This document shows, piece by piece, positions 3,691 to 41,100 of a DNA stretch of 64,000 bases. This DNA is from Antedon bifida (lineage: Eukaryota; Echinodermata; Crinoidea; Comatulida; Antedonidae). Within the stretch, counting starts at the first letter, position 1. Every line of letters begins with the position of its first letter. The notes under the pieces are model-generated. The model was not told the DNA's origin. It saw nothing but the letters and a program-made list of their open reading frames with translations, and did not search any database. The translations under genes and the position numbers were made by a program. Location of the stretch: the NCBI GenBank assembly GCA_963402885.1, contig OY727097.1:15686001-15750000 (forward strand), written 5' to 3'.

Positions 3691-4981
3691 TTAAACGTTC
3701 GTGTCATTTTCTTGAATATTTCGATTGTTGAGTCCATCTTTTAACGACTTCATAAATAAGTTCAGTTGTTCAAAGTCTCTAGAAATAAGATGTTGTTTCT
3801 TATCTTGTTCGTAAACTGCATCGCGTGTTAATAGAAGGCAAGTACGAATATTGTCCTGCAGAAATATAAAAAAAATGTATTAAGGTAAATATTATATTTA
3901 TTAGAGGGGTATGTTAAGGTAGGGTAGTTGTACAGTAGTGGTAGTGATGGTGAAGTATTAAGTTTCAAATGTATATGCTGGAGAGTTTATTCATTCACAA
4001 TTACGAAGTTCAATAGTACAGAAAGAAGCGTGCGTCAATTTTGATACCACTTACCATGTACAGAACATGAATTATAGAAATAATCCTAATAGTGATATGG
4101 AAATATATTAGAAATGCCTACTAGAGTCGGCTGTAGAGTAAACTGTAGAGTTGTGGTATTCATTGGTAACGGTGGTAGATTCAGTGAATCGTAGATATTG
4201 GTGGTTAAAATAGTTAGTAGAGTAATTTGTAACTACCGATATGAATACTGGTATAGGACTACTTCAAAAAAGAAGCTTTAACTATAAAAGTGATATTTTT
4301 GTAGTGGTAGAGTAAATGGTGTCGACAGGTGAAATTGTAACCCAGTAGGTAGGTGATTTGAATATTTTATTTAATAACACGTGTACAATTCCCATGAATG
4401 TATCCCACAATGTATCCTCAGGAACCTTCAATAATTTTTCAAAAAAAATATTAAGAAAGATAATTTATTAAAAAATAAAAAAAACCAATAAGACTGCCAT
4501 TGCTGTATATAATAAATATATCGGTGTTCAACAAATTCTGGATTAGTATACCTCTCCAATTGGAACACGTGACAACACCAACCACAATAACGAAAGTATA
4601 TATAAAATGAAGAATTAACCCTTTATAGACACATTTTAAAATACTCCTAAAACATATCATATTACATTACATGTTATCTGACCATGTAAAGCGTTTTGAT
4701 CCTTAAAAATATACGTTCAATGAGTTGTGTTGTTTTAAGAAAAGGTGAGAAAACGTTATTTTCTTGTTTTTATAAACTTACATTTTCTTTGTATATCACA
4801 ACATTATCAAGGACTACGTGACCGTGGTATATATGTCTACCGTGCATGAACTGAAGCGTTCTTTTCAATTCAAGTTCCACATCAGTTATCTGTGCAGAGG
4901 ATAGTTTGTTTTGTTTCGTATTGCAAGCATTATAACTGTCATGAACAACCTTAAATGAAGATGTCGCCTTATCGTTGTTTA
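3691..4981 (-). CDS. Cytoplasmic tail exons with kinase-C-lobe-like sequence
   Basis: Exon 4782-4981 joins the 7TM exon in phase 1, and exon 3691-3855 follows in phase 0 and ends at TAA. The tail has a helix ending LQFMHGRHIYHGHVVLDNVV, which lines up with kinase helix E and the catalytic loop (HRDxxxxN, here HGHVVLDN, with the Asp replaced by His). LLLTRD sits where DFG would be, and RDFEQLNLFMKSL matches the helix-F region. No P-loop or VAIK lysine exists in the roughly 40 residues between TM7 and this block, so it would be a partial, inactive pseudokinase. The exon calls rest on splice sites and frame; the kinase resemblance is my reading and was not tested by profile search. Confidence 0.6.
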
Positions 4982-7900
4982 CTGAAAAATAGTAGAGAAT
5001 AACTGAAAGTATAAATTGAAATGAAATAAATACTGAAATTAAATAATAAATCATAATACCAAGAGACCATGCATATTAATTCAAATAAATCGTCACAAGA
5101 GGCTGATGAATCTCGAGTTATCTTTATGTATCGGAATGTTAAATAGTGCGCTTGCTGTTGCCCGCAAAGGCTCTGTATTTGATATGTGTGCCACGTTTTA
5201 GGCATAGAAGGCCATTACATATTTTTACATCATGGCTTCATCATTTCCGATAGATAATGAAAATGGCGTGAACCATTCATTTACTAACCTGAACGTGTAG
5301 TTGAGTGAGCAGTCAATTGTAATGAACTTAACTTCCTCATTTTACGTTTCTTTGCATCGTTTATCCATAATATTGTATACAGATATGGATTGAGAGACGC
5401 ATTGATCGGCAGTATCAGTGTTGCACTCCAAACGTAAACATCCACTGGTATTTCCCATGAACCTGTCTGAGCAATTATATTCCAATTAAAATTATCGGGA
5501 ACCAGCAGCAGAAATCAGTAAATATAATCATCGCCATCTTGGTCGCCATTTTGACGTCTGTTCGATTTGAAACGCTTTTCTTGGCGGAGGCAGCTGTTTT
5601 CTTTACGATTACGAATATGTAAATATAACTAATGGCTATAACTAAAAAACTTAGCAAATTTAAACCCAACACGATTGCTACAGAGTATTCCCATCCAGAT
5701 AATCGTGTGCTTGTTAATGGTAACGACAAACATACACTTGGGCGGCCGTAGAAATCATCGCCGAAGTAAGAAATGCCTAAGACTGGCAAAAATCCTAAAA
5801 TCACAGCAATCAACCAACCACAAGTTACAATGACATAACTCTTTTTGCGGGTTAACTTTAGTCTACTGAAAGGAAATCCTATCGATATTGCTCTGTCAAT
5901 ACTTATGATAACCAGCGTGAATACTGAGAACTCGCTGGATGTCATAGACAACGCACCTGCGAAATGACACAGGAAACTTGATGTCCATATGCTGGCATAT
6001 ACGGCATATTCTCCACGATAATGAACATCGGCACTGGCAATTATGACCATGTAGACACCCATTAAAAAATCTGATATTGCAAGGTTTGTTATAAGAAATG
6101 ATTGCACGTTAGTGTAACTGTTGTTTCGTACACGCCAGACAACCACGAAAGCGTTTCCTATAAGGGCACTAACACCTAATATCCACATCATCACTCGGAG
6201 GAACGATATTCTCATCAAGTCTTCGCATGACGAAAATATATCAGAAGGTGGTTCACAGTGTGTGGCTTCTGACACCATGCAACAGAATTGGTTGTCATCA
6301 GTATACCTGCAACAGAATATTGAAAGATAAACAAAGACAGTTCCATTATTGCCGTGATGTTGTTTTAAAAAGATTTTGTAATTTTTTTAAAGAATTTTAG
6401 GAATTCACTCAATTTTAATATCAAAACCTCGTGCTATGTGCCAATAAAGCATACGTGTTGAGACCGTAAAAATGGAGAGGTTTTGATAGTATAGCGATAC
6501 AACGTAAATAACTAGTTAATATACTTACAGATGAGTTAATGATAAACCATTAAACATATCTGGGTCTATATCTTCTAAAAGATTATTTTCCATATGTCTG
6601 TAATAATTCAATGCAAAAAAAGACCTTTTGTAATAAATTCTTAATGAACTACTGTATAAAACTATTTGCTATAATACAGATGTTATGATCTAGGAATAGG
6701 AATTTGTTGTGTAGGAAGAGATTAAATGTATGTACACAGAACGCAGTGTTTTGGTGGTGTATATAATAACAAATAAAATGTGTGTTAACGTGAAACAATC
6801 TCGGAACCTTTGCTTCACATTTATAGACAGAAATACAGAGCTAACAAGTATTCACGTTCTTGACTTTTGTTTAATACAATATTCCTCTATTACATGTATC
6901 ATAAAACAATAATCTTAATAACCAATAAAAAATCAATTTTAAACGGACTTAATATAATAAGATAAGATAACATAATAAGAATAATTAATAAATAAACAGC
7001 AATAAGAATTTGTTGAAAAAACATGCTGTTTTTTTCTTTCTTTAAACCCTAATTATATTGACATGATGTTAGTGTGTTTACTTACATGACAGCAACCGAT
7101 GGCGCATTTTTAAGAACATTTGGTCCATTTGTTACTAGTCCATTGTTGTCAATAAATCTATTTAAAAAGTCAAGTTTCATTGTCAATAAAGGAACAGCAA
7201 AGCCATACATGCCATTTAAGCATACAGTAAATGGTTTTTATAATAAAATAATTAATAATACATTTACACACAACACAAATAAGTAATGCTTTCCCAGTTT
7301 ATTAAGAGTATACATTTAACAATACATAATATTTATTTCTACTGATACTGTACAAGCAATGCTAAATACTACTAAAGCTTAATAATAAACTACATTTGGC
7401 CTCTTGGGGGCTACCACTCATATGACATCGCTGTATTAAAGGTCCAGTGTGTTGTCACAGGAGCCAGTAAATCAAATTGTTGTTATTAAGTATATCGGTA
7501 AGGATGTAAGTGACATCCGTTAGGTATATTGTGGAATTTGGGGGCAAAATAATTCCCCAGAATTATACCAGCCAAATGAGCAAATAGCATGAGTAACATA
7601 TGAGTAGCGCCTGTGTTGAAGTTAGGTGTTGGATGATGCCGGGGGATGGCCGGGTGGGAAGATTGAAAAGTTTGTACAACTATTGAACGGCTAATTTAAC
7701 AATGAGGTGTTAAGAGCAGGAGCCCAGAGGGGTCAACCTAGCTGGAAAGTTAACCAATTTCTATGTGGCAATTATCTACGTACATATCAATGTATGGAAA
7801 TGACAGTCTGGCGCGTTTCTTTTGGTGGGTGTGGCTAGGAGGGACATTGTAAAGGGTAAAAAAAATGAGCTAGATCAGCTGAAAAGTTAACCCCATGAAA

Positions 7901-10900
7901 TATTTTGCAAATTGTTTGACATAGAGTGAAATATAAGGAATGGCCATTGCCAGACGATTTTAGTGGTGGGGGGTGCCTGCCAGACCCCCATTTCTGGGGG
8001 GCCAAAAATGAGCTAGATCAGCTTAAAAGTTAACCCTCTGAAACTGGTGGGAAAATGTTCAATAAACTCATAATTATCATGAATGACCATTGCCAGACAT
8101 TTTCAGTGGTGGATTGTGCCCGCCAGACCCCGTCAAACACCCAACCCCCCAAAAATTGAACTAGATCAGCTGAAAAGTTAACCCCATGAAATATTTTGCA
8201 AATTGTTTGACAAAGAGTGAAATATAATGAATGAACATTGCCAGATGATTTTAGTGGTGGGGGGTGCCTGCCAGACCCCCATTTCTGGGGGGGCCAAAAA
8301 TGAGCTAGATCAGCTTAAAAGTTAACCCTCTGAAACTGGTGGGAAAATGTTCAATAAACTCATAACTATCATGAATGACCATTGCCAGACATTTTCAGTG
8401 GTGGATTGTGCCCGCCAGACCCCGTCAAACACCCCACCCCCAAAAAATTGAGCTAGATCAGCTGAAAAGTTAACCCCGTGAAATATTTTGCAAATTGTTT
8501 AACATAGAGTGAAATATAATGAATGGACATTACCATACGATTTTAGTGGTGGGGGATGCCTGCCAGACCCCCATTTCTGGAGGGCCAAAAATGAGCTAGA
8601 TCAGCTTAAAAGTTAACCCTCTAAAACTGGTGGGAAAATGTTCAATGTACTCATAACTATTATGAATGACCATTGCCAGACATTTTCAGTGGTGGATTGT
8701 GCCTGCCAGACCCCGTCAAACACCCCCACTCCCAAAAATGAGCTAGATCAGCTGAAAAGCTAACCTTTTAAAACATGCTGTAAAATGTTCAGCATGATCC
8801 CTAGTATAATAAATGACCATTGCTAGACATTTAAAGTGGTGGGTTGTGTTCGCCAGACACCCATTAAACACCCCCCCCCCCCCCCAAAAAAAAACATCAA
8901 CTAGATCAACTCAAAACCTAAACTTATAAAACAAAATATATGGAGCAATTAAGTACACTAAAAAACAGCATAAATGACTAAAATGAGAACTACATCATCA
9001 TCCCAACACCCGACATTTTAGCATATGATACTTTATATAGTACCTTATTCTATCTACAGTAGTTTTCACTAGTTACAACAAAAAAACAGTCTTATTTAAT
9101 AAGCTATGACTTTTCTGCACAAATTATTTTAAATTAATCCATATATTCCTCTTCTGAATCAGAGTCTTCACTCCATGCATCGCCATAAGAATCACTTGAT
9201 TCTCCGATCTCTGTTTCTTCCGTTTCACTGTCAATTTGTCCTTTTTTATTCTTGATAGACGGCATTGAGCTGTTGCAGTTTCCCCCAATTCAAGACCAGC
9301 AAATGTTCTCAGCTCCGTGACTGCCATGGCTCGTTGAGTCATAGTCAATGACCACCGGCGCATTGCATTTTCCGAATTAGGAAAGGCAACAATCCTTCTC
9401 ATACTTGAAGAAGAATCACGATTGACCGTCTGTTCTAAGGAAAGGTCAACAGCTGATCTACTGTAGTGCTTATTTGTACGTCTGATGGAAAATGCTCCTT
9501 TCTCCAGTACTTCAAGCAACTTTGGGTCAGCGTTTTTCAGTTTCTGTATGAATAGAGTTCCCCATCTGGCGTAGTTAGGTCGGTTCAGGGCAAAGTAAAC
9601 AGATAATATGGTTGGAAATACATTAATGTAGCCAGTGATGTCATTTGTTTTCACAAATCTCTGAAGTTCTCTATGGAGTCGATTAATAAGAAAAATGTAA
9701 ATAGCCCAGAATTGTGCTGTTGAACCTATATTTCCAGTAAGCACTGACTGGAAGTAATTCTCGTACTTCTGCAGGTGATTAATTACAACAGGATCCGATA
9801 TATGTTCTTCAACCAATGATGGGTCCAAAGGTGCAGTTGAAATTATTTCTTGAAATGTGTGATGATCTTCTGTTTTGCTCCAAGACATTGGCAAGCAATT
9901 GGTGAATTCTAGTGCACCTGTTGTAAAACTTTCCTTTGATGAAACCCATCATTGACCCCTCAGCAAAGATATCTGCTTCTTGGAGAATATATTCGATACC
10001 GCTGTCGTTAATGTACGTTCCAACTGCTCCGTAGAACGCCAACTCTAGAAGAAACTGAACTCGGCAGATCAACGCCACACAGAATTAGACTATTGATACG
10101 TTGGTTTTTTGAAAATTTTACCCGCTGGATAAGTGACTTGCACCCAGAAACAGTTGCTATTTTAAGCCTTTTCTTTTCTTTCCCATTTTTTCGGCCTTTT
10201 CCACAAAATATGCAAGTTCCCTTTAACATGCCACATTCATCTGATTTCTGAAGAACACTACTTTTTCTTGTTTCACGGCAGTGTAATACCTATGACATAA
10301 AGGGTGATAGCTGATTGAATTTTCAGGTTGTTTCATAAGAAAAACCTTGTTTGTTGTATCAGCATATTTGTCAGACTTCATTTTCTTACGTAATGCAGCA
10401 GCATTCTTTACAGTTGACCATTTCATTTCACTGAACGCTCTTAATTTACAATCGTTGTCCGCCGTTACCGTTTGGCAGATGTAGCACTTTGAAACATGGT
10501 CAGTGTTCTGAAAGAAATGTAATGTCCCAAGTCAAGCATATTTAAATTTAAACCTCAAACTTTAAATTAAACTACAAATAAAAGTAATATGGAATGTAGA
10601 ATACATTTTCAAAGAGAAAAAACATTTATTTAAAATTAATGATCACATTATACCTCTTTACTAACAGATACAGGTAAAATACTTGTTGCTGCTGGTCCAA
10701 CTGCTTCACTTATATCCTGTTCTTCTGTAGTTTCAGAGGTTTTTTCTTGAGTTTTACTATGTTGTAATTCTTTATCTCCTTGCTCTTCTATAGTTGTACT
10801 GTACATGGATGCATTTTTTCTGCACAACTTTGTGACTTTTCCAAGGTTATTGATGTTTCTTCTGAATGTGTTTCCTCTTGGTTTATCCTTACAGATACTT

Positions 10901-13900
10901 TGTCTCGCTCTTTTGGTACTGTTTGCTTTTCGTTTAGATTCATTATGGCTGTCATAAACATTGAACAAAACACAACTCTACAATTAGTGAATTAATATAT
11001 TATTGCACTACTTTAATTAACTGTAACTATATAAACACCATACCCCTTACTAGTGCTTACAACCTAATAAAGCATTGTCCAGGTCTTTCTTAATTACACT
11101 GTATCCTAATCTCAAACAATATAATTAAACCAATACATATACATAATACTTAGACTTGCCTAAAGCTTAATTAATGACATGGCACTGACTTCCTAACCAC
11201 AATATTAGAAATTAGGAAACAACATTCCTAATGGTAATCAATCGTATACTTCTAACAAGTAAAACATGAATATTAACATAAATGTGTCAACGCCTGGGTT
11301 CATAGTTGCATTAGGCTGTTTACTGGGCCCCTTATATTAAGCAATAGGCCAGTGAGCGCTCATGCTGTTACGCCACTGAACGCTGTGGAATATCTATCAA
11401 TGAGCCATAAATAGCCTAGGCCTAATTGTATTTGTTTAGTATTACTACACAATTAAAAAAAATCATAGCTGGACACTTACCTTGATTTAAAGATGTGCCA
11501 CTCTCTATCATAATCAAAATGCATTTAATAAAATCAGCCTTTGTTTTGAAATGTTGATGATAATCAACAACATTATTCTCTAGGGAACCATTATAGAAGA
11601 TAAGTCAGTTTCTAAATATGTCCTTTAACTGCATAAACCAATTGACTAATTGATTTACTTTTTTCCACACCACAAAAAGACAAAGAAGTCCTGTTCTGAA
11701 TACCTATTTTACACTATGTTGAACTTATATACTGTACCATAGTGGCACATTTGTGAATTAGGTAAGGGGTTGGATGGATGGGGTGGTTCTATAATGAGCA
11801 AATAAAAATGTCTGGTAATGACAATTCATATCCTTGACAGTATACTACACATTTTCCCACCAGTTTTACAGTGGTTAACCCATGGCCTAATCTGGGTCAT
11901 TTTTGGGGGTGGGGTGTTTGAGGGGGGGCCTGGTGGACACAACCCACCACTTAAAATGTCTGGCAATGGTCATTTATTATACTAGGAATCATGCTGAACA
12001 TTCTACAGCATGTTTTAAAAGGTTAGCTTCTCAGCTGATCTAGCTAATTTTTGGGAGTGGGGGTGTTTGACGGGGTCTGGCGGGCACAATCCACCACTGA
12101 AAATGTCTGGCAATGGTCATTCATAATAGTTATGAGTACATTGAACATTTTCCCACCAGTTTTAGAGGGTTAACTTTTAAGCTGATCTAGCTCATTTTTG
12201 GCCCTCCAGAAATGGGGGTCTGGCAGGCACCCCCACCACTAAAATCGTCTGGCAATGTCTATTCATTATATTTCACTCTATGTCAAACAATTTGCAAAAT
12301 ATTTCATGGGGTTAACTTTTCAGCTGATCTAGCTCAATTTTTTGCGGGTTGGGTGTTTGACGGGGTCTGGCGGGCACAATCCACCACTGAAAATGTCTGG
12401 CAATGGTCATTCATGATAGTTATGAGTTTATTGAACATTTTCCCACCAGTTTTAGAGGGTTAACTTTTAAGCTGATCTAGCTCATTTTTGGCCCTCCAGA
12501 AATGGGGGTCTGGCAGGTACCCCCCACCACTAAAATTGTCTGGCAATAGCCATTCCTTATATTTCACTCTATGTCAAACAATTTGCAAAATATTTCATGG
12601 GGTTAACTTTTCAGCTGATCTAGCTAATTTTTTTGACCCTTTACAATGTCCCTCCTAGCCACACCCACCAAAAGAAACGCGCCAGACTGTCATTTCCATA
12701 CATTGATATGTACGTAGATAATTGCCACATGCATAGAAATTGGTTAACTTTCCAGCTAGGTTGACCCCTCTGGGCTCCTGGTCTATGTGCTAGTATGCAT
12801 CTTAGTAACCAACTAAAACACTCTGAATTCCTATTGGTTGCCAATTAGAAATTAGCCTATCCTACATTTTTGTGGTTCCACTATTAGATATACCCGTTGG
12901 TCTATAGAAATACATTGTCAATTACTGTGGTTGGAACTTTGATAAATTGTCTCCCTTGACTAACATTCACTTTTAATTACCTGTAGAAACAATATACCAT
13001 TCATCCTAACACTTCTGTTACTCTGAAATCTACCCACATCTATATACCACATCCTTAGTTAAAAGTACTTGTGCTGTGTATAAACTATAATTTATTACTT
13101 TAAATTTCCTTAAATCTTACAATGATTTTAGCTTATTAAGTCCATCAAAGCATCCAGCCTGTATATGTTTGATTTTGTTTCCAAATAGAACCCTTCAAGA
13201 TATAAAGTGACAATTAGACCATCTCTTCCAAAGTTAAACACTGACTGACTGTATTAAGTTTGTCAAAAAGCAGAAAGTGGTTATTCATTAACAACGTATT
13301 GAACATAAAACATACATAGACTGTAAATTGGATGGGTAAGAACCCGACTGCAATGATGGGGGTTGGTAAGCAAAATACATACAAGTTTGTTTCAGCACTT
13401 TGTTTACTAAAATCCCATCCCAATTATGCTGATAGTTTTTTTAATACTCACAGAGTTTCTAGATTAATTTGGTACGAAAAAGAGGACGTTGCTATTGACT
13501 CAATTCCATTCCACGATATATTACTGTAACATAAAAATAATATCAACATATTAGAATAGTTCAAGCCTATTAATATAGGATAAGTATTCTTCTTATCCAT
13601 CCAAGTAATTTGGAATAATTTTATTATTTTCACAATTTATACTATTGATTAATATTGCTTGGTATCTTGATTTTAGCTTTAGAATGGTCCTTATAATCTA
13701 AGAATCAGTATTACACTTGTTAACTCTTATTACATACAGTGAAATTAACATTTGGAAGCGTGTAAAATTCATTTTCAATACATCATCAACTGTTAATAAC
13801 GATGATGACCTTCTGACCCGAGCATGATAAGATTCCATATGTGAAAGAGAGCTACAAAAAGACAAAAATAACACGTTAAATAACAATCGTTTTTAAATTT

Positions 13901-16900
13901 TGTATTATACAGATATAATCAATATTGAACATCGAATTGCACAAAATACTACCATCCATGCGTAACATAATTTTAACAATAGTAATGCGATTGTGTACAA
14001 CTAATTGTAGTTCTACACAATTAAATGTCAATATTTGAATATAATTTTTTTCGAAATATATTCCTCAGCTGCTACATTTTACTACATTTAATGAAATAAT
14101 TATAGACCAGTGAACCCATGCATATTGGTGAAACCCTGATTCAAAATGATAAAATAGGCCTATGCCTACTGTATTTTATTCGAATTATAGTGATTCTGTA
14201 TTGCTGTTCTGAGAACAATGTAGGTATGAGATAATAACGTATATTTACATGTATCTTGTTGATTCTGAGAGCATTTGAGCTTTTGAAACATTCCATCCTG
14301 TACGTTGGCACTTGACTGTTAAGCCGACACATACGCACCCCGTTGGACATTCGAAGCCTATAGAAAAAGTCACAAAATGCTAAAATCCGTTATGTGTAAT
14401 GTACACGTTGAAATGCGACAGTAGGCTAATCAAAAGTATGTTAAAACTTATTTCAACATTAAACAAAGAAAATAATTAGCACAATTAATAATATGATAAA
14501 CAAAGAAAACAATGTTTGTAACGCGAAGAATTTAATTAATTTAAAAATACATACTGCAGTACAATTCATCATCGGCATGTGAACACTCGGCAACACCATT
14601 GCACTTCTGAGATGGTGAAATGCATACAGAACTATGACACCTGAACATACCGGGGCATTCATAGGATTCTACAACACAAAATGAACATACTACTACTTTT
14701 TAATAATAGACTGTTGGGAAAAATGTAATTTCACTCTTTTGTGGGGAAACATAAATGGAATTAAAATACAAGCATACAACATAATCAATTACAAAACGTA
14801 ACTCGTTTCAGAATAATTCCATTCTGTTGCTGTTTGCGGTCCTTGCTAGCGTGATGTCACTTACCACAATTAGTTTCATCCTCTCCGTTTGGGCAATCCC
14901 AAATCGTGTTACATTGCAAATGCTTAGCTATGCAGTATGATCCAGGACATTTGACAGTTTCACGTGGGCATTGGATGTGTGCTGAAGTAAAAAATATCAT
15001 TTAGGCCTAATTAATTGTTTAATCATGCTATTTCCTTTTTGTCTTGTGTGAGTTCTTCTCACGTTTATTTAAATTTTCATTGATGAATATATTATATACA
15101 TATAAATACATTTGTGATAATTAAAAGTAAGTGTTTAAAGTAGTTAAAATACAGGTATATTTACATAATAAGATGCCAGAATTCAGTATTAACCATATTT
15201 TTTCTCATTTAAAATTTTAGATACGATGTTAATTAAAATGTAGAAAAAAAAAATGGCGGTAAAATACATGATTAAAATTTTCTTGTTAAACTATCTTATT
15301 TGTGTTCTTATTTGTGTTCGAGTAGAGAGGCTATAAACTCAGGGGAGGAAAATGTAGTATCCTCCCTCACCAAGATAAGATGGATGGAATGAAAAAAGAG
15401 GAATGTAATAGATTGAAAGTTAGTTATTTAGAATGATAGCATGAAATGGTATATTTAATGAAAACCGTAAGGTTAGAGTCCATACACTGTGCAAGTCCAA
15501 GATGTGAGTTTGGCTCTGTGTGTATGTGAGACGCTTCATACCCGATGTCATCTTAATACAACTACTACTTACAATTTGTATTTACGGTATAACATATTGC
15601 AAATATATAAAAATATATAGAAGTATATATATTGAACAAATACACATACCTATAGATTACATTGACATGTATACGATCATGCTATTTCCATTAAGTTTGT
15701 TTGTTTGGGTGTTTCAATTGTGTTCTGATTTACTTTAGCTTTTATTTAGTGGTTTTGCATTAAACAGGCCTACTCATAAATTATTGATCATTTCTTTTAA
15801 TGTTTAGGCTTGTAAACAATACACAAATTAGGCCTACAACAATTGTCCAGATGTGTTGCATCCCTACATCCCATTGGTAGTAATTGTGAGTCAATATCAT
15901 GCACACACATCAAATCCTTTGAAATACATTCTCCGTTTTTACAGCGCATCTGATCATCCTCGCACTGGTTCTGGTTCCAGTATACTAAAATTGATTGAAT
16001 TAAGATAATTATTATTAAAACAATTTTAATACATTTATTTACAGTATTAAATACATAATGTAATTAAAAGAAAATAGACATTTTTTTTTTAATAAATCGT
16101 AACAATATAAACTTTGATTATATCGCCGTATTGTCTAGCAACGATTAACAATCGCAAGTCAGGGTCCTCGTGTATTTCCGTAGGATTTTAATGCCCAAAG
16201 TGAGATTTCACTTGATTTCACTTTATTATGGTGCTAGGATACCAAAAATGCTAGGTAACAAATTTTCACGATCCCATAACCATGGTAACAGCCCCAATTT
16301 CAAAATGGCGACCAAATGGCCATATCTCCATAACCCTTTGGTCTATTGACAAGATATTGGTATCAAAATACTCGGAATATATATATTTATATTCGTTGTA
16401 ATAGAACATTTTTACTAAATGCAACCGGAAATGCTATTTTTCTGTACTATTGACCCTTGACCTTGACTTGTACTGTATCTTAAAAACGGCTGGTCATATA
16501 AATTTAAAAATGGTCTCAAATTGCTCAGACCTTATATATTTATATTTATTGTAATGCAATATTTTGTTAAAAAATGTCCGGAAGCAAAGTTATTGACCTT
16601 TGACATAAAGAATAGCTTGCAAGTATTTTTATTCAGTAGTCTCTGGTCATATCTCCATAACCCTTTGGTCTATTGACAATATATTGGTATCAAAATACTC
16701 GGAATAAATATATTTATATTCGTTATAATAGAACATTTTTACTAAATATAACCGGAAATGCTATTTTTCTGCACTATTGACCCTTGACCTTGACTCGCAC
16801 TGTATCTAAAAAACGGCTGATTATAGAAATTTAAAAATGGTCTCAAATTGCTCTGACCATACATATTTATATTTATTTTGATGCAACATTTTGTTAGAAA

Positions 16901-19653
16901 ATGACCGGAAGTAAAGTTATTGACCTTTGACCTAATAAACATGAACTTTATGTATAAGCATTTATCTATTTGAGCATGTATCGGCAATGTGGTAGGAGAT
17001 TAAAAATGAGTTTATACATTATTATTATCATTCGAATATTTAATTTCTAATTCACATATTTAGTTTTTATATATATTAGTATATACTTTATAGTGTAAGT
17101 AAACACATTTATCTATGTAAACAACTTTGGACAATAGTTAAAATTTAAGCAGAAATTCATTGCACTGTAGTAATTTTTCTTCCATCCACTTCACTAAAAT
17201 GACGTAGTCAAATTGATGCTTCCTGCACTTTTCCTGAAATGTTAATTGCTATACTTTTTACATTTTTCCTGATAAGAAACTGGAGCTCCAAAATTGGATT
17301 AAAACATCTTTAATTACATCAATACCATGCATTTATTGTGTCAGCAATCACTCAATGAGTGAGAGTGGTTGATCTTCAACTTTTGTACCTTTAATGCATT
17401 TTCATATATGGAGGTTTCTTATACATTGAACAGCTGCCGGCCATACATTATTACGTAGTTATAGACGTTCCTTGGTTTTCTTCCTAGATGTTTCGAGATA
17501 TGAGAAGCAATCTTTCAATGCTAACGTTGACTGCCATTTTGTGATTCATATCGCCAAGCCAAGGAATCTATTTAATGAGTGAGATTGTTAGAAGTGACCA
17601 AGAGGTTTTTGATGTTTACAGCATTTTATGATTTTATCTCCCTCCTTTAAGCTACTAAATGTTTTCAGAGAGTCCACAACCAGACTTTACTCACAAATTT
17701 CAAAAAGCTTCAACTCCTATTTTTTTTATTATCTCTGTTTAAGATATATTTCTTGACTTCTTTTGAAATTATTACTAAGACAATGTTAAAAAAAGTGTTA
17801 TTATTTGTTATGAATGTATTTTGATGAAATCTTGATGGATTTGTGTGTTTTGTGTTGAAGAGTGAGTTCGATGGGATATCTAGTTCGATTTCCTCATCTT
17901 ACGTAGTGCCAACAAGACCACCAACCCATTTTAACTGTTTTCCTTCTGTTCTAGAGCCTGATCCGGGAAAAAGAGCACTATTTAAATACATTTTTTTTCT
18001 TTACATTCAAATGAATTACAATCTTTTATTCACTGTTATTGGGTCATCTACATCAAGCTAAGCTGTTTCATTTGTGTTAGATGACAATGTGTCAGAGACG
18101 AGCATATAAATGAAAACCAGTTATGGGCAAAACAAATCTGCAAGATACCTTCCTAATAAAATAGGTTATAATTACCATCAAATCTCATTCTGACATTTAC
18201 TACTTTTAGCCAAATCAGAAATCTTCAATTAATACGTTTATAGAGGTTCAAAGTGGCAATTGAAAACAATATTTGAAAATGCGAGTTTAGAAAAGAACTG
18301 AATAATAATAATAATTATCCTAAGTGAACACCAGGCTAGTGATCTGGAGGTTGTTGGAGTCCCACCTTACTTAAGTATTAATTATTATTCTTAGTAAAAG
18401 TGAAAATTACGTCAGAGTAGGGCAAAAAAATCTGACCAATGTTATCCATCCTTGTAATGTAAAAGCTATTCTCTATGTCAATGGTGAATAACTTTACTTC
18501 CGGTCATTTTCTTACAAAATATTGCATTACAATAAATATAAATATGTATGGTCTGAGCAATTTGAGACCATTTTTAAATTTCCATGACCAGCCGTTTTTT
18601 AGATACAGTGCGAGTCAAGGTCAAGGGTCACTAGTAAAGAAAAATAGCATTTCCGGTTACATTTAGTCAAAATGGTCTATTAGAACAAATATAAATATAT
18701 TTATTCCGAGTATTTTGATACCAATATCTTGTCAATAGATCAAAGGGTTATGGAGATATGACCAGAGACTACTGAATAAAAATCCTTGTAAGCTATATAT
18801 ATGTCAAAGGTCAATAACTTTGCTTCCGGACATTTTTTAACAAAATATTGCATTACAATAAATATAAATATATAAGGTCTGAGCAATTTGAGACCATTTT
18901 AAAATTTTTATGACCAGCAGTTTTTAAGATACAGTACAAGTCAAGGTCAAGGGTCAATAGTACAGAAAAATAGCATTTCCGGTTGCATTTAGTAAAAATG
19001 TTCTATTACAACGAATATAAATATATATATTCCGAGTATTTTGATACCAATATTTTGTCGAAAGACCAAAGGGTTATGGAGATATGGCCATTTGGTCGCC
19101 ATTTTGAAATTTTGACTGTTACCATGGTTACGGGATCGTGAAAATTTGTTACCTAACATTTTTGGTATCCTAGCACCATAATAAAGTGAAATCAAGTGAA
19201 ATCTCACTTTGGGCATTAAAATCCTACGGAACCCCTATTTTCATACATGAGGAACCTGACTACAAGTGGAACGTCCTTTAACCTATGTTTATAACTTACA
19301 GCAATCCTTCTCATCTTCAGTGATACTTCCAGGGCAATCATTGGTACCATTACAGTTTATCCGAAGAAGAATACAGGTTCCATCGTAACACTGAAACCCA
19401 AATTCGCATCTAGCTATAAAAATGATAGTTGGCAAAAAAAACCCAAAAATAATCAAAATAATGTATATGCAGTATAAACACAAGGGCCACGAACTATTAT
19501 AATATCTACTGTATATCAGAATACACATATTCCTGTAATGCTTTTGTTTTCACAAAATTTGAACACAAGTTGTAAACTTACTGCAGAAAAGTTCATCAGT
19601 TTCATCTGTGCATTGTGTAACAAAGTCACAGCGCATGTCTTGATGTATACACT
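3691..19653 (-). CDS. GRL101/relaxin-receptor-like GPCR (LDLa-LRR-7TM-kinase-like tail), 5' end not found
   Basis: Rhodopsin-family receptor of the type C LGR group; family members are plasma-membrane G-protein-coupled receptors, ligand here unknown. Exons in coding order: 19582-19653, 19300-19413, 15838-15984, 14865-14981, 14555-14668 (LDLa modules); 14249-14357 (LRR N-cap); 13738-13851, 13452-13523, 7086-7157, 6529-6597 (LRRs); 5289-6306 (hinge and 7TM); 4782-4981 and 3691-3855 (tail, stop TAA). Every junction keeps frame with GT-AG ends. Missing: start codon, signal peptide and first half of the first LDLa, which must lie above 19.65 kb. Odd: a 2-bp frameshift in the 7TM exon and a tail resembling a kinase C-lobe. 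The family call is firm; whether this copy works is open. The gene runs opposite to the integrin gene upstream. Confidence 0.85.
5289..6306 (-). CDS. 7TM exon of the GRL101-like GPCR, with a 2-bp frameshift before TM7
   Basis: Starts with the LGR hinge (YTDDNQFCC, then CEPPSDIFSSCEDLM) that joins LRRs to TM1. Visible landmarks are TM1 (GNAFVVVWR), TM2 (NLAISDFLMGVYM), the DRA(I) variant of DRY (SIDRAISI), TM5 and TM6 (FTDFCCWFPIILIG). After that the frame hits a stop at about 5475. Moving to the other frame near 5473-5478 restores TM7 with LPINASLNPYLYT, the expected NPxxY site, and a basic tail down to a good donor at 5289. The shift is explained by an extra TA in an AATATAATT run. This is either a real null allele or pseudogene mutation, or a sequencing error; the rest looks well conserved. 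Confidence 0.85.
6529..14357 (-). CDS. Leucine-rich repeat exons of the GPCR
   Basis: Exon 14249-14357 is an LRR N-terminal cap with the CPTGCVCVGLTVKC cysteine pattern. Exons 13738-13851, 13452-13523 (NISWNGIESI), 7086-7157 (FIDNNGLVTNGP) and 6529-6597 (ENNLLEDIDPDMFNGL) carry LRRs; the last three are 72, 72 and 69 bp, one repeat per exon, all phase 2-2. Exons 13452-13523 and 7086-7157 join in frame and keep the LRR register although a 5-kb transposon lies between them. Four to five LRRs is fewer than many LGRs; an exon lost in the 6.3-kb intron cannot be excluded. Confidence 0.8.
7867..8890 (+). repeat. Left subterminal tandem array of the transposon
   Basis: Units of about 145 bp, each starting with GAGCTAGATCAGCT(T/G)AAAAG and containing CATTGCCAGAC and GCCAGACCCC, alternate between two subtypes to give a ~290-bp period, with about seven half-units. 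The array ends in a C14 run followed by an A run. The regular spacing of the same short motifs is what one expects of transposase-binding subterminal repeats; that role is inferred. Confidence 0.7.
9124..10968 (-). pseudogene. Degraded transposon protein (zinc-finger N-terminus and YARW/LEQT-type C-terminus)
   Basis: Pieces in order on the minus strand: a Lys/Glu-rich exon (donor near 10654), a Cys/His segment from 10515 (CYICQTVT, then YHPLCHRYY), a second Cys segment (CIFCGKG), a GFIKGKFYNRCTRIHQLL block and a C-terminal block (9124-9894) with RPNYARWGTL, DLSLEQTVNRD and AMRRWSLT. Frames change at about 10223, 10050 and 9880, so no intact protein is made. I recognise the overall pattern as one often seen in large transposon-linked hypothetical proteins of invertebrates, but I cannot give it a superfamily name. 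Confidence 0.6.
11846..12640 (-). repeat. Right subterminal tandem array of the transposon
   Basis: Inverted counterpart of the left array, with the same alternating ~145-bp units but about five copies instead of seven. The difference in copy number between the two arms suggests unequal exchange or replication slippage after the element formed. Confidence 0.7.
12781..13451. other. Intron of the GPCR right of the transposon
   Basis: Plain AT-rich intron sequence. Short open frames on both strands show no family resemblance and no LRR pattern. Confidence 0.45.
14555..19653 (-). CDS. LDL-receptor class A exons of the GPCR (five modules, first one partial)
   Basis: Exons 19582-19653, 19300-19413, 15838-15984, 14865-14981 and 14555-14668 each carry a Cys-rich LDLa unit. 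The acidic calcium cage is seen as CTDETDELFC in the first, CPNGEDETNC in the fourth and CSHADDELYC in the fifth; the second reads CPGSITEDEKDC. The third module ends in GCRDATHLDNC, a variant I associate with GRL101-like receptors. All these exons begin and end in phase 1, which suits duplication or loss of whole modules. Only the second half of the first module was found. The intron from 15984 to 19300 holds a 3.1-kb foldback element. Confidence 0.85.
16157..19261. mobile_element. 3.1-kb foldback element with ~0.8-kb inverted arms, in a GPCR intron
   Basis: The left arm (16157 to about 16940) and right arm (about 18457-19261) are inverted copies; the ends read AGTCAGG and CCTGACT. Each arm contains the segment TAGGATTTTAATGCCCAAAG and two copies of a module with TGGTCTCAAATTGCTCAGAC, ACCGGAAGT and TTGACC-type motifs. 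The ~1.5-kb centre (16941-18456) shows no coding potential that I recognise. The right end lies 39 bp from LDLa exon 19300-19413, so the element nearly touches a splice donor. It is probably non-autonomous. Confidence 0.75.
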
Positions 19654-20559
19654 CTACATTGTATGTATATCATAATTGAAAAACTGTTGACGTTTTTTTA
19701 TACTATGTATATGAATTACGATGAGATAACTGTTATTTGAATTTGAGATACGTTCTAATAATTACATTTGTTAGTAAAAAAGAGTAAAGATATAAGGAAG
19801 AAAGGCAAAGAGATTATGGAGCAGCTGTACCAGACAAAGAACTGGTCACTGAAAGCCGAGTGTGTTCTTTCACTTGTGAATGTACCATTTGTGTTTCACA
19901 ATGACATTTTCTTCAGATTTTCACCATCACCTACCTCCTAACAATTCAATGTCTCATGCAATCATATGTAATCAAACATTTACCTAGATTTTCCAAATAC
20001 TTATGAAAATTTCCAATAAAAACAAAAGCTGTACAATTTGACAACCATTTTTTCAAACTTACCATTGTTTACATTTTGCTAGACCGATCGATCGATCGAT
20101 TTCAAAACTTCGGGGTGTAAATAATTTCGTAAACTCTATGTTATGCTTAAGTACTTTCTATTTCAAAACAATCGGTAATTAACAAACTTATATTCTAACA
20201 ATTAGTATAAATATGGTTTTATAATATTCATGACGAAATTGATTAAACTAATTTTAAAGTGTACTAAATAAAAGTTACAAACGTCGTGAAAGTTGAACGA
20301 GATTCAACCACTCGCGTGGCTTCACACTCAGGCACATATCACAGTCTAACAATATTGAGGGCGCTTGAATGTTTTTATTTATTTTACATTGCTTGAGACA
20401 GCTGAGTGTTGTGTCAATGCACTAGGTATAAACACTTAAATTACCGTTGTATAAAATCCACTGTGGCAGACCGGCAGCCAAGCTCATTTCGATCAAGCGA
20501 ACAAGGTACCAATATCCGAGTACAGGAATATTTATTACGTAACACAATATATCAATATA

Positions 20560-21360: not shown

Positions 21361-21565
21361 TGATGCCAGGTTCATAAAACTGTGTCAGATGACAGGGAGA
21401 ATGGATCAGGTACTATATCATCACATTTCATAAAAATGAAAATAATGAATCCATAACAGCAACCTAAACTACAATACTGTATTTCATTATAAGTGTTCTT
21501 GTCTGTGGATGATTAACACAAAGTAGCATTAATTAAAAATATTATTACCAAGATTTAAAATGAAT

Positions 21566-22632
21566 TTAAGTGTTATCCATTTGAAACAGGGTGCTATCAA
21601 TTTGAAACAGGGTGCTATCCATTTGAAACAGGGTGCTATCCATTTGAAACAGAGTGCTATCTATTTGAAACAGGGTGTTATCCAATTGAAACAGAGTGAT
21701 ATCCATTTGAAACAGAGTGCTATTCATTTGAAACAGGGTGTTATCCAATTGAAACAGAGTGATATTCATTTGAAACAGAGTGCTATCCATTTGAAACAGG
21801 GTGTTATCCAATTGAAACATAGTTATCCATTTGAAACAGAGTGCTATTCATTTGAAACAGAGTGCTATCCATTTGAAACAGGGTGCTATCCATTTGAAAC
21901 AGGGTGCTATCCATTTGAAACAGGGAGCTATCCATTTGAAACAGGGTGCTATACATTTGAAACAGAGTGCTCTCCATTTGAAACAGGGTGCTATCAATTT
22001 GAAACAGGGTGCTATCCATTTGAAACAGGGTGCTATCCATTTGAAACAGGGTGCTATCCATTTGAAACAGAGTGCTATCTATTTGAAACAGGGTGTTATC
22101 CAATTGAAACAGAGTGATATCCATTTGAAACAGAGTGCTATCCATTTGAAACAGGGTGTTATCCAATTGAAACAGAGTGATATCCATTTGAAACAGAGTG
22201 CTATCCATTTGAAACAGGGTGTTATCCAATTGAAACAGAGTGATATCCATTTGAAACAGAGTGCTATCCATTTGAAACAGGGTGTTATCCAATTGAAACA
22301 GAGTTATCCATTTGAAACAGAGTGCTATCCATTTGAAACAGAGTGCTATCCATTTGAAACAGGGTGCTATCCATTTGAAACAGGGTGCTATCCATTTGAA
22401 ACAGGGAGCTATCCATTTGAAACAGGGTGCTATACATTTGAAACAGAGTGCTCTCCATTTGAAACAGGGTGCTATTCATTTGATAACACTCTGTTTCAAA
22501 TGGATAGCACCCTGTTTCAAATGGATATCACTCTGTTCCAATTGGATAGCACTCTGTTTTAATTAGATAGCACCCTGTTTCAAATGGATAGCACTCTGTT
22601 TCAAATGGATAGCACTCTGTTTCAAATGGATA
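21566..22632. repeat. 21-bp minisatellite with a higher-order repeat and an inverted tail
   Basis: About 50 copies of GGTGCTATCCATTTGAAACAG, with variants. A block of ~480 bp is repeated (starts near 21831 and 22312), giving a higher-order period. From about 22485 the units run in reverse orientation to 22632. Because the unit is 21 bp and has no stop in several frames, long open frames appear on both strands; these are artefacts of the period. Confidence 0.9.
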
Positions 22633-35100: not shown

Positions 35101-38100
35101 TAAAATAATTGTTTTTATAGAAAATTACATCTGAGATTCAACTTGTAGACACGGTGACAGCTCCTATTCATGTAACCTACTCTGCCTATTGCGATGGCGA
35201 GACATTGACGCCTAATTCGCAGAACTGTAGTAACATTCGCTTAGGAAATGTCATTAAATTTAAACTAAATGTTAGCGTTGATGAGTGTACAGCAAATCCT
35301 ATCTCGTAAGACATGTTTACATTGTTTATTACCAATCACAAGTGGAGCATTAACCTTGGTGCATGCGTTGGAAAGCTTAAAACAAATGTTTCTGCTGCCC
35401 AAGCCTGACTGACCCAATATTTGGTCAGCTTCTTTTTTTATTTGTTTAATTGTAGGAGCATTTAATGAAAAAGCACAATTAAAATTAAAAGGCAATATTA
35501 TTTTCCCAAAAATTAATCATTTTTAAATCAACACTAAGGATTGAAGTAACAAGTAAATTGAAATTGCATTTTCTCAAGAACTACTTGTCCAAAAAACTTC
35601 ATTTTTGTACAAGAGGCAAGAGTTATAATTTGTGATTTGTAATTTTAAAACATAATTTGATTTAATGTGCACCTTTTTTATGCGAGTAGTTTAAAAAACC
35701 TATTTCTTTAAAAATTCACTCGTTTGATGTTCTTGTTGCTGTTCTATTGTTAGTCAACTGAAGCTATTGTTAATTTAAAGACTTACATAGCCATTCACCA
35801 AACTCGCATACACATGCTTGTAGTGAAATTAGCCTAAATCACAAACAGCATTAAGACACACACAAATATATATACAGTATATATATTTTTCCCGGAATAA
35901 TCTTATGTAGGAGAATTTTACAGTAGGAGGAGGTATGCACTCTCGGAGTGGCTTTCTAGCTGTTATTATTATTTGAAAAATGTCCATTTACTGGATAAAT
36001 GGTATGATACAAAGTTGATTAATTTCGATTATGCAGTGGTTGAAAAAATAAGAGCTTTCTTTTAATATTAATAAGTTACAGGGTACATGATGTGCTTGAA
36101 TTTTTATCAAAATGTTTAGTTTTTCAGTTAAACCTCTCGGATTTGAAGAGAACCTAGAAGTTGTCATAATAACAAATTGTGAATGTGAATGTACCAAGTC
36201 TGTGACACCAGACAGTGAGCTATGTAGCAATGGTAATGGTTCACTGGTCTGTGGTATTTGTGAGTGTAATGAAGGCCGGTATGGAGAGGTCTGTGAATGT
36301 GATGACACTGGCTCAGACGAAACTGAAACACTTGCAGATAGTTTACCATGTCAAACGTAAGTTTTTCTAAGGTGCCATCTTTGATACTGATATTCAACTT
36401 CTTTACTTAATTCCTTTTTGGAAATGCATGATATACTGCTAACCTAGTTTACTAGTGTTTATTCGTCATACAAACATTAAAAAAATATTGCTGTTGAGTA
36501 TTTTACAATTGTTTGTTACTGTAAACTATAGAGGGCAGAAATCATAATTTTGATTTCTTATTTTCAATAACCAATCAATAAAACTTGTATGTTTAAAAAA
36601 TATTGGTCAAATCCTATTTTTATTTATTTCAATAGAAGATAAGATAAGATAAGATAAGATAACTTTTATTGATCCTCAAAAAGGAAATTCATTGCTCGTC
36701 ATATTAACAAAGAAAACACGAAGTAACTCATCTTTGGTTTGTTCAGGTCAAGGGTCATGCATATGTGGGAAATGTGTGTGTAACAAGCGACAAGTAGGTG
36801 AAATATATGATTTTATAGTTTTCTTATTGGGGCATATCAGTAGGTCAACTATTACAGTACTGTGAGTATACTATAGTGGGTCAATTAGAGGAAAAAAGAA
36901 GTTTTTTAAAATCTGTTCCTGATGATAATTGACAATTAGTAAGTGCGAAAGATTAAAAATAATGTAACCCTATAAATAGAGAATGTCACTCTCTTATATA
37001 GGGTTTGAGAGGCGGAGGCGAGACTGAAGGAGTCAATTTGTTATTTATAACTATTGTACATGTTAAGTTTCTCTATTTCTAATAATGGTCAACCACTATA
37101 CGATCACAGACACTGGTGTCGTGACCAGTTAGTTTAAAAAAATATATACAATCAATATAAATATATATTACAGTTCAATAAAAATGTTATTACCATATTA
37201 ACGTGTTTTATAATGCCAAGCTAGATTATAATCCAACCCACTAATTTTTTGCCAAATGTTGTAACCCGGATCCTGATTATATACTGGTCATATATTTTCT
37301 TGAATACGATTAATATAATATAAAATGTATTATAAATAGAGCTTTTTTTGTTATGATTAATATTGTTTTCTTTTTCAAGAATCCTTTAGAAAAAATCACA
37401 GGAAAGTTTTGCAACTGTGATAACTTCTCTTGTCGCAGAGATTCTGCTGACCTCATTTGTGGTGGTATGTTCAATTTTGTTTATATTATTTTCTTTGGAC
37501 TTGGTTGGTTAATTTAAGCTCTGCTGACAATATTAAGGATCATATCAGCATTTTTCTACTACAGTAACTAAATATCTTAAATATGATTTTAGTCTGTTTC
37601 AAATGTAGAAGCTATGAGAGTCACTGCAATAAACAGTTTGTATTATTACCCAAAAAAGATTATTAGATTATTGCATTGCATAAACAGGTTAAACAGAACA
37701 AATTAGTTTAGTTACTGCAATAAGATAATCAATCTCTGTAGAAAATTTATTATATTATTTCTCTGTGATTTTTTTTTATTGTAAATTGCCTTTGAACATC
37801 ATGAAAATGGTAGTATACAAATGGGGTATTTAATTATTATTAATTATTATGAAAATGGTTTTGAGCGTCTTGTGTATAATATACAGTATGCTCTGTGCTA
37901 TATAACATGGACTTGATAGAAATAATTTATGACTAAGCTCTGTCTACACTATCACACTTTCTGTGCCTAAATTGATGTGCCCATGGACATGATAACATCA
38001 TATCAATACCCTTTTTTTGTCAAACTAGTGTGATACTGTAGACAGAGCTTATAGGTATTTATTAACTTTGATAGGTCCATCAAAAGGAACATGCGTTTGT

Positions 38101-41100
38101 GGTCAGTGTGAATGCAAGCCAGGCTATAGTGGTCCTGATTGCAGTTGTCCAACCAGCATTGAAAACTGCCTAGCATCTACTGGAAAAGAGTGCAATGACG
38201 CTGGACACTGTGAATGTGGTGTTTGCATGTGTAATGCAACACTGGTCTACGATGGCCCAACTTGTGAGGATTGTGATGTAAGTTCATTTATGTTAAAATC
38301 TTTAGTGCATCCTCAAATTCAAATGTATGATGTCATCATCATCAGGATTGATCAAATGCCCTATTCATAGAAATATTAATAAATTATTATCCATTAGTTC
38401 AATTTTAATTATTTTCTTTCATGTAATCTGGGATCTCTTTTATACAAAGCTTCTGGTTTCTTGAGACCCGATTTCATCATTTTAACATTGTACAGTACCA
38501 TAATAATTTATACAGTACCATACTTTTTCCAATGATTTTTCTGATGATGAATAAATGTATTTGTATTATAATATACTTCTATTTTCTATGTAAAACTGTC
38601 TTAAGTTAAAGTCATGTGACACACATCTCCGAATTGTTCTATAGACGATCCGTCCCACCTATTTTGTACTTACTATAGGACAGAACCCCAATTGAACATA
38701 ATCATTTTACTGATATTTGTAGACATGTCCAGCTAAATGTGATCGCAATCGTGACTGTGTGCAATGTCTAGCTTACGGTACAGGTATATCTGAGGAAAAA
38801 TGCCAAGAGTGTCCTCAAAAAATTATACTTGTCGAGGAAGAAGAATTAATAGGTAAGAAATGTGGAAACATTTTAATTGAAAAGTAATAAACTCATTTAT
38901 TTTATTTGATTTGTCTTCAAGATTCTGTAAACCTTCTTGTTTCATTTCTTTTATTGTATTCATCCGATAAAAAAACTTTAAAAAGGATAAAACACAGATT
39001 AAAATACATTAGTACAATCCAATGTCTTGAGTTGCCACGTTGTAATTGGTGGTTCACAGTTTTTATAAACTATAAAGTATAGTAGGAGAAGCATATGACA
39101 ATTTAGGAAATGTTTCAGGTTCGTTCAGAGAAGAGTACCTTATGCATATGTTGCTTTCGCGACACATGCGTTGCGTACTACACTTCCTGTCAAAGCAAAA
39201 TCAAAATGAACAAGTATTTTAACGAAACTTTTCTCTGAAAACTACGCTGTTATGCAAATGAGCAGAAAGGAAAGCTCTTTATTAGCTATCTGTTCATGAT
39301 GTTATAAAAGTACAGTATAATCTATACTGAGTTTTAGCGGGTACTGTATAATTTATGGCATTGTAAAATATTATTATAAGGATTTTCTTAAGCACTTAAA
39401 GGAAATCTTCTGTGATCTAATCGTTTTATATACCAGCTGTTTATTATCTTGAATTATAAACAATTTGTAAAAAATAAAGATTATTTATAAGGGAAGAAGA
39501 AGGTTTATTTGGTAAGAAGTCGAAAAGTTGAAAAGTAATAAACTAATTTATTATATTTGTTTTTTATTTAATTTCATTTATATATTCATCCGTTGATTAA
39601 ATTGATTAAATAAATCCCCTATGAAGAAAACTATGCATTGCTTTCTATAAAAACCTTGTATCTCCACATAGTTTTACAGGTAGATGCTTTATATTTTGTG
39701 CTAGGTAGGTGTGTAATGAATTGGAGAATGCCAGAGATTCCAGTAAAATATAAAACTTACTAATAAATATATAAATTTCTGGTTTTATTTTTATTTTGGT
39801 AAAATGACACACAGATTCCAGTAATAATTTAACAATAGAATTCTGGTTTTAAATAATTATTTGGAATTATTTCACAATTTTTAAGAATATAATACAAGGG
39901 TTAGCCATGGCTTTGTAATAAATTTCTAGGAATCATTTACCTTAAAATAATAGTGATAAAACACACATTTTACATGGTATTTAGCCATTTTAAAAGTTGG
40001 ATGTACACCATCGTAGATTACCATACCATTATGTTTTACAAGGGTAATTATGTTTTACATTATGTAATACAAGGGTTAGCCATGATTTTGTAATAAATTT
40101 CTAGGAATCACTCTGATGTTGGTATGGAAACCAAGGAATTCACTCTGATATTGGTATAAAAACAAGGAATTCACTTTGATATTGGTACGAAAACAAGGAA
40201 TTCACTTTGATATTGGTATAAAAACAAGGAATTCACTTTGATATTGGTATAAAAACAAGGAATTCACTTTGATATTGGTATAAAAACAAGGAATTCACTT
40301 TGATATTGGTATAAAAACAAGGAATTCACTTTGATATTGGTACGAAAACCGCATATTGTACAGTACAAATCAAAACTTTGTATGAGCCACTAAATATATG
40401 TGTTCCGACAAAAAACACAACATTTTCTGCTTTCTGATTGGCTGTTGTTCTGACAACATATTGGGTTAAAAAATATGGTATATATTAAAAATATTTTATT
40501 GATGTTAATAAAATAATCTGATGGCAATCCGATTCAATTTAGAAATGATAATACTAATATTGCTGGTACAATCAATGAAACATATGTAGATTACATTAAC
40601 ATCATAAAAAATAACTATTTGAAGCATTAAAAACGTATGGTGTACATTATTGACAACGCAATGAATTATCCGAACTGTCAATTATGATTGTTCAACTCAC
40701 TAGCGTTGCGCTTTTGTAGCGATTTCTGTTTTTTAAATCATTTTTTTCTGTTAAGATTTTAATTATTTTTTTAAATTTTTTTATTTATAAATTTTATTTT
40801 TAAGTGTTATATTTTTATGTTACTTGTCTTATCAAATTATATTGTACTAAGGGTCCCTATTATGATCAGCTTTGGCTGGATGTACTACCCTTGTTAAATA
40901 TTGTTGTGAAATAAAATAAATATGGGAACCACACCTTTTGGTTAAAAAAATGTCTCTAAAGTATTCAGATTTTATGAATATTGCTTAATTTTATTTTATA
41001 TAGAACATAACCATGACTTTATGTTTGTTTAATGAAACGCATCATCATTGTACTCTACATTGTCTTAACCTTTTATTGACATATCTGGTATCTTTATAAA

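Follow-up and report, generated by a model that had tools for sequence, protein, structure and literature searches.

The window analysed here, a stretch of 64,000 nucleotides from the crinoid Antedon bifida (contig OY727097.1, positions 15,686,001 to 15,750,000), probably contains a copy of a GRL101-like LRR GPCR whose predicted cytoplasmic tail is the degenerate remnant of a protein kinase and most likely a non-catalytic appendage. In the fullest paralogs of the same genome, this remnant would extend from about the αC-β4 loop as far as β8, with a short αF-like helix in addition, and in the clade of the window copy it would comprise αE onward. The gene is built from the following features:

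3855-3691, minus strand: tail exon 2, with a β7/β8-like strand, a linker, the short helix RDFEQLNLFMKSL and a stop (from translation and splice sites)
4981-4782, minus strand: tail exon 1, putatively derived from a kinase by degeneration and comprising αE and the catalytic loop, in which HGHVVLDNV replaces HRDxxxxN
5289..6308, minus strand: exon for a rhodopsin-type 7TM (TM1 to TM7) similar to GRL101/LGR (limits from splice sites, approximate at the upstream end)
5475..5477, minus strand: premature TAA resulting from a 2-base frameshift after TM6, absent in paralogs L057-L060
6531..6599, minus strand: LRR exon (limits by eye; LRR_8 E=0.0073, under the curated cut-off)
13120..13194, minus strand: LRR exon (open-frame limits; LRR_8 E=0.00059, under the curated cut-off)
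14248..14355, minus strand: LRR N-terminal cap exon (approximate limits; LRRNT E=0.00057, under the curated cut-off)
14544..14666, minus strand: LDLa exon (approximate limits; Ldl_recept_a E=4.6e-8)
14860..14982, minus strand: LDLa exon (approximate limits; Ldl_recept_a E=1.1e-9)
15830..15985, minus strand: LDLa exon (approximate limits; Ldl_recept_a E=0.00032, under the curated cut-off)
19292..19417, minus strand: LDLa exon (approximate limits; Ldl_recept_a E=4.5e-7)
19577..19669, minus strand: LDLa exon (approximate limits; Ldl_recept_a E=1.7e-5)

The preliminary description had labelled the receptor an LGR, which is borne out by the five LDLa exons (four of them above the curated cut-off), the LRRNT exon and the two LRR exons upstream of the 7TM exon. 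The TM1 to TM6 part matches the Pfam family 7tm_1 with E=1.5e-27, and a guessed further LRR-like exon at 7085-7156 gave no Pfam match. Hence, the window copy combines the features of a GRL101-like LGR (type C2), i. e. a rhodopsin-type 7TM, LDLa repeats and LRRs located between the LDLa repeats and the 7TM. An intact coding frame is lacking in the window copy and is found, for the 7TM and tail exons, in L057-L060. Elsewhere in the window, integrin beta-like exons are encoded on the plus strand (38029-38367 and 41878-42171) with EGF-like repeats (EGF_2 E=5.6e-9) and a match to Integrin_b_cyt (E=1.3e-6). A plus-strand ORF at 62743-63108 includes a GIY-YIG-like stretch (E=0.0017, below cut-off) and is perhaps the end of a Penelope-like element, and a minisatellite at 21500-22560 has open frames with HLKQGAI-type repeats on one strand and LFQMDST-type repeats on the other.

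Both tail exons lie where the preliminary description had placed them on the minus strand, and their splice frame proved to be as proposed. The 7TM exon is followed by the canonical donor CAG/GTTAGT, the acceptor TTTTTCAG, the donor AAT/GTAAGT and the acceptor CTGCAG, and the frame of the tail is continuous, first with phase 1 and then with phase 0, until a TAA at 3693-3691 ends it. The translation contains HGRHIYHGHVVLDNVV as well as RDFEQL, and the helix RDFEQLNLFMKSL takes, by eye, a place comparable to αF. The splice joins between 7TM exon and tail as well as the resulting protein are predictions from the genomic sequence. Searching the window's own assembly (315 Mb, 27 contigs) afforded 24 tail-exon matches including the two of the window, all of them on the minus strand of contig C10 at 11.56-16.09 Mb. 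Tail exon 1 was matched at ten further places on this contig, and a total of 11 copies, window included, was read exon by exon. The tail is not a chance ORF, because eight of the other ten copies (L055-L060, L062 and L063) contain both exons together with their splice signals. At two further loci (L065, L066), tail exon 2 occurs without a complete gene. A 96% match to tail exon 2 at C10:13596692 was considered as an intronless, i. e. retrotransposed copy and rejected, as it sits in a window-like genomic stretch with the intron included; the extra part of this match is read-through into the intron, because the surrounding stretch follows the genomic sequence of the window.

That the receptor continues in phase into the tail, as had been claimed, applies to TM7, but not to TM1 to TM6. 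The latter are readable at 6305-5478 and run, through the 2-base frameshift, into the TAA at 5477-5475, before TM7 resumes in a different frame at 5475-5290, in phase with the tail. Judged from the predicted exons, the fusion layout is real for the family, because L057, L058, L059 and L060 are open through TM6, TM7 and both tail exons, and it is broken in the window copy. The latter is most likely a pseudogene, because the frameshift with its stop falls between TM6 and TM7. The break is either a real frameshift or an assembly error. In the second case, which appears somewhat unlikely, the window copy would be a working gene like L057-L060, and indeed only a single 2-base difference is involved, with TM7 and tail otherwise intact. 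Yet a stop or frame break is also present in six of the ten other copies read, so that decay is common among the C10 copies: L055 has lost four residues in TM2 and ends its 7TM exon on a TGA codon; L056 and L061 both have a frameshift in the 7TM exon, and tail exon 2 of L061 is changed as well; tail exon 2 of L062 contains a stop close to its end; L063 and L064 each carry a 7TM-exon stop, and in L064 tail exon 1 is also frameshifted, with exon 2 missing from the piece that was read. In addition, the window copy holds a block of approximately 5.8 kb (7264-13110) between homologous segments that is missing from nine paralogs, which also speaks against a working gene. This block includes imperfect direct repeats around 7860-8750 (by eye) and long minus-strand ORFs (9124-9948 and 10223-10531) with no convincing Pfam match, and is perhaps a mobile element. 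Three truncated copies of the 7TM exon (C10:13095811, 15932886 and 16384614) comprise residues 1-123 only and are 91-92% identical; all three break off at one and the same point, suggestive of a single event that was copied on.

Relatives of the tail are found beyond the C10 array. The 7TM query gave 122 matches in the assembly, 80 of which were counted as related exons after split or stop-riddled pieces and weak rows from the end of the table (42 in total) had been dropped. Queries with the tail and with related tails located kinase-like tails behind receptors at C9:19.47 Mb, C9:19.56 Mb, C8:12.76 Mb and C12:15.6 Mb; two further tails, at C15:0.2 Mb and C10:29.36 Mb, diverge more strongly. 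For all seven tail loci tested, with the window as the sole member of the C10 array, a 7TM match precedes the tail on the same strand at a distance of 493-1311 bases. The intron before the tail has phase 1 in C10, C9, C8 and C15, and the intron between the tail exons has phase 0 in C10, C9, C8 and C12 (both partly by eye). The C15 and C10:29.36 Mb tails are placed in the same family by their position and a weak alignment without significant match, and the C15 tail also by its intron phase. The C9 tail is 49% identical to the C8 tail and 32% to the C12 tail in the alignment (42% to the latter in the search match), and the 7TMs are 49-64% identical to the window 7TM. In a tree of 21 7TM rows, from which C12:15.6 Mb and C10:29.36 Mb were left out, a branch with full support separates the six tail-bearing rows from the rest, with a long branch for L047 (C15). 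In the 15 rows without a tail match, the open frame ends soon after TM7, with PLNTL-stop in 14 of them and KHQR-stop in L044. In the latter receptor, a donor-like GTAAGC immediately precedes the stop, and a further exon may exist. On contig C12 (23.33-23.88 Mb), seven LGR 7TM exons with near-equal scores lie on one strand at a spacing of 67-104 kb, and the proteins of three of them (L051-L053) are identical.

These stops soon after TM7 raise the question of whether the tail exons are part of the mature receptor at all. The transcript could pass the 7TM donor and stop at once (TTRSG-stop), since in the window an in-frame stop indeed directly follows the skipped donor; the related receptors of the tree end in a comparable manner, and the near-neutral change of the C10 tail (see below) would fit as well. 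Against such a read-through, which we regard as quite improbable, stand the canonical splice signals with the same phases across several subfamilies and the frames of the C9, C8 and C12 tail exons, which are open where read in spite of much divergence.

As to its origin, a kinase ancestry of the tail is most likely, as far as sequence comparison can tell. The homology that the preliminary description had proposed holds for αE and the catalytic loop and is supported through the relatives, but is weak from the window alone. Profile matches to kinases do exist, contrary to the outcome that the preliminary description had named as refuting its proposal. The only Pfam rows of the window tail are Pkinase (E=0.091) and Kdo (E=0.1). 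Against the PDB, 19 of its 23 phmmer rows to E=10 are named kinases, the best with E=0.14, and the remainder consists of three protein A rows and one with an uninformative name. In L059, an intact C10 tail, the Pkinase row is lost and Kdo stays at 0.031. The C9 tail, with HGD in place of the HGH of the window, matches Pkinase with E=0.0016 and Pkinase_fungal with 0.0021, followed by DUF494 (0.0082), PK_Tyr_Ser-Thr (0.054) and Kdo (0.09). For the C8 tail, DUF7824 is the best match (0.021), ahead of PK_Tyr_Ser-Thr (0.039) and Pkinase (0.043). No Pfam match was obtained for the C12 tail, and the sole row of the L047 tail is the unrelated Phage_Mu_Gp36 at 0.1. All Pfam kinase matches of the tails remain under the curated cut-off, for instance with Pkinase scores of 12.6 bits for the window and 18.3 bits for C9 vs 31.7.

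Combining six tails into a profile provided a clearer picture. Its search of the PDB gave 267 rows to E=10, with VRK3 at the top (E=0.00091). The best 60 of these rows comprise 57 named kinases and three named titin, which we take to be the titin kinase domain, and the matched PDB stretches lie over the αE/catalytic-loop columns. The reversed six-tail alignment retrieved two rows, a capsid protein and a xylanase, and no kinase. Analogously, hhalign returned P=1.1e-4 and a probability of 57% for the tail profile and P=0.49 for the reversed one. L069, a kinase exon from elsewhere in the genome (Pkinase E=3.8e-22), shows the side matches Kdo and Pkinase_fungal that also accompany the C9 tail. BLASTP against L069 aligned the C9 (E=9.6e-7), C8 (7.3e-6) and window (0.001) tails in the same register, with E-values that are optimistic given the one-sequence target, the lack of composition correction and the choice of L069 among 139 kinase matches for its position in a tandem array. 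The C12 tail was not aligned in register. Moreover, the C9 tail and L069 share FLHRNK as well as H.D at the catalytic loop. AlphaFold modelled tail exon 1 alone with low confidence (mean pLDDT 52.7), which is uninformative on the fold.

Conceivably, the likeness could be due to chance, with an HG-containing loop that happens to follow an amphipathic helix. Taken by itself, the window tail falls short of significance (E about 0.1), and some tails match other families first, or none. We nevertheless consider this very unlikely, as the best 60 of the 267 PDB rows of the profile are all kinases and none appears in the reversed control, the register is the same in window, C9 and C8, and the catalytic-loop residues FLHRNK and H.D are common to C9 and L069.

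Given a kinase origin, it can be assigned which parts were probably kept. The C9, C8 and C12 tails begin with (V/I)LP(L/M)(L/I)S and then RP(Y/F).LS, which, by eye and from general kinase anatomy, fits the αC-β4 loop, β4 and β5/hinge. In agreement with the absence of the N-lobe noted in the preliminary description, no Pkinase alignment of a tail begins before profile position 57, the start found for C8. The hinge-like part is followed by αE, the catalytic loop and β7/β8 in this order. Where αF would follow a shortened activation segment, C9, C12 and C10 have a short helix (by eye), i. e. QEFDQLKNLMNSL and NDQLKSLIAKL in the C9 and C12 tails at the same place as RDFEQLNLFMKSL in the window. The β4-hinge part is not recognisable in the alignment for the window or the other C10 tails. 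Inspection by eye of the intron frames revealed no glycine loop, VAIK Lys or αC Glu, and no Pkinase match lies between 7TM and tail among the listed genome matches. The catalytic Asp is missing in the window as previously described, with H at the HRD Asp place; T is found there in C8, L in C12, and D only in C9. Variation among the subfamilies also affects the Asn of the catalytic loop and the position of DFG. By eye, neither DFG nor APE is recognisable in the window tail, which has LLLTRDA at the DFG place. The tail as predicted cannot be a canonical kinase, because N-lobe, DFG and APE are absent and the HRD Asp varies. VRK3, the best PDB match, which we take to be a pseudokinase, resembles the tail in having αE and a catalytic loop with HGN/HGx replacing HRD. 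Yet VRK3 possesses a whole bilobed kinase fold, whereas the tail lacks the N-lobe and retains at most part of the C-lobe.

A full kinase on another LGR of the genome was also sought and rejected, as none lies close behind an LGR 7TM exon among the matches listed. The Pkinase search of the assembly gave at least 139 matches (126 of 897 candidates scored). None of 96 listed kinase rows is located up to 30 kb downstream of any of the 80 7TM exons on the same strand, and for the other 43 listed rows, compared with 43 of the 80 exons on both strands, the nearest distance is 118,745 bases. A side result of this search is an array of 16 tandem kinase exon matches with near-equal scores at C8:17.73-18.56 Mb, 15 of which cover Pkinase positions 6-143. 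It includes L069 with the catalytic motif HND and is likely a lineage-specific kinase expansion.

The selective constraint on the tail appears to differ between the subfamilies. Within the C10 array, pN/pS amounts to 0.90 for the tail (nine copies, 36 pairs; without L061 and L064) and to 0.17 for the 7TM (seven copies, 21 pairs; without L055, L056, L061 and L064), the exclusions being due to indels or frame breaks. In the same seven copies, two synonymous and 11 nonsynonymous changes (one of them a stop) in the tail compare with 34 and 27 in the 7TM (Fisher p=0.013), a test that is based on few changes. The difference has p=0.005 without the window copy and p=0.07 for the four intact copies only. 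The broken-frame copies that were included (window, L062, L063) raise the nonsynonymous share in both parts. The C10-array tail thus looks nearly free to change, with the receptor part kept. For C9, C8 and C12, the predicted exons suggest constraint on the tail, because it is open where read and alignable at a divergence not much above that of the 7TM.

These data also bear on the possibility that the tail is a kept pseudokinase module for signalling, for example a scaffold for substrates or a binding site for effectors upon movement of the 7TM. Such a role could explain the retention of tails in several diverged subfamilies, the conserved gene structure and the HGD at the HRD place in C9. It appears unlikely overall in view of the absent N-lobe, the differences among subfamilies at three sites (HRD Asp, Asn of the catalytic loop and position of DFG), the relaxed constraint in C10, and the fact that 15 of the 19 non-C10 receptors in the tree have no tail match and a frame that ends soon after TM7. 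The favored alternative is the non-catalytic appendage. The simplest history would be a single acquisition of kinase exons by an ancestral receptor. The tail may then have lost its N-lobe, unless it never had one, and the catalytic residues would have drifted separately in each subfamily. In the LGR family, LDLa and LRR modules serve for ligand sensing and the 7TM for G-protein coupling. In intact members of the present family, the LDLa/LRR ectodomain would hence sense a ligand and the 7TM would presumably couple to G proteins as in other LGRs, while the tail would be a non-catalytic appendage that at best offers a docking surface for a partner protein. Docking is conceivable in the better-kept subfamilies; in the C10 clade of the window, the tail would be nearly dispensable and in the process of being lost.

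Among known systems, the closest are the GRL101 or type C2 LGRs (Lymnaea GRL101, arthropod LGR5 and ambulacrarian GRL101), which, according to the portions of PMC8286064, PMC6267866 and PMC12297450 used here, have LDLa, LRRs and a rhodopsin-type 7TM in common with the window gene. The clustered multi-copy expansion of GRL101-like receptors described for a snail in the sections of PMC12297450 drawn upon resembles the multi-copy array on C10. In contrast, the corresponding part of PMC8286064 lists one GRL101 ortholog per ambulacrarian species, compared with some 80 related 7TM exons in A. bifida. A kinase-like tail also sets the present family apart: the word "kinase" does not occur in the main texts of PMC12297450 and PMC6267866, and the kinase passages of PMC8286064 concern receptor tyrosine kinases only, so that no such tail is mentioned there for GRL101-like receptors. 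Likewise, no kinase-like LGR tail appeared in the titles and abstract openings of the open-access papers listed for the terms used.

Fusions of GPCRs and kinases as such have been reported. The passages of PMC12716839 on this subject describe GPCR-TKL/K and GPCR-TK fusions from choanoflagellates and sponges as well as GPCR-kinase fusions from oomycetes and amoebozoans, none of them characterised in function. As in the GPCR-TKL/K and GPCR-TK proteins presented there, a C-terminal region of probable kinase origin follows the 7TM in the A. bifida receptors. The two differ, however: by the same account (PMC12716839), the kinase domain of these fusions is a recognised one and the GPCR-TKL/K 7TMs cluster with no other GPCRs, whereas the A. 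bifida family combines a rhodopsin-type 7TM with a fragment devoid of catalytic residues. The full kinase domain typical of GPCR-TK and GPCR-TKL proteins is absent behind the window 7TM, where two tail exons are followed by a stop.

Taken together, the window illustrates that any one copy may represent the broken end of its family, which calls for caution when such a copy is interpreted in isolation. A more far-reaching proposal, which we put forward as a tentative and rather doubtful one, is that a class A LGR lineage in an animal outside the sponges captured kinase exons once and that the crippled C-lobe still functions as a pseudokinase module for docking or gating at the inner face of the receptor in the less decayed subfamilies C9, C8 and C12. 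If true, this would constitute a GPCR-kinase fusion outside the groups with reported fusions, with several stages of decay in one genome. Such an LGR family would open the way to dating the fusion, to asking if the kinase was once complete, and to learning if a dead C-lobe fragment can be useful to a GPCR.
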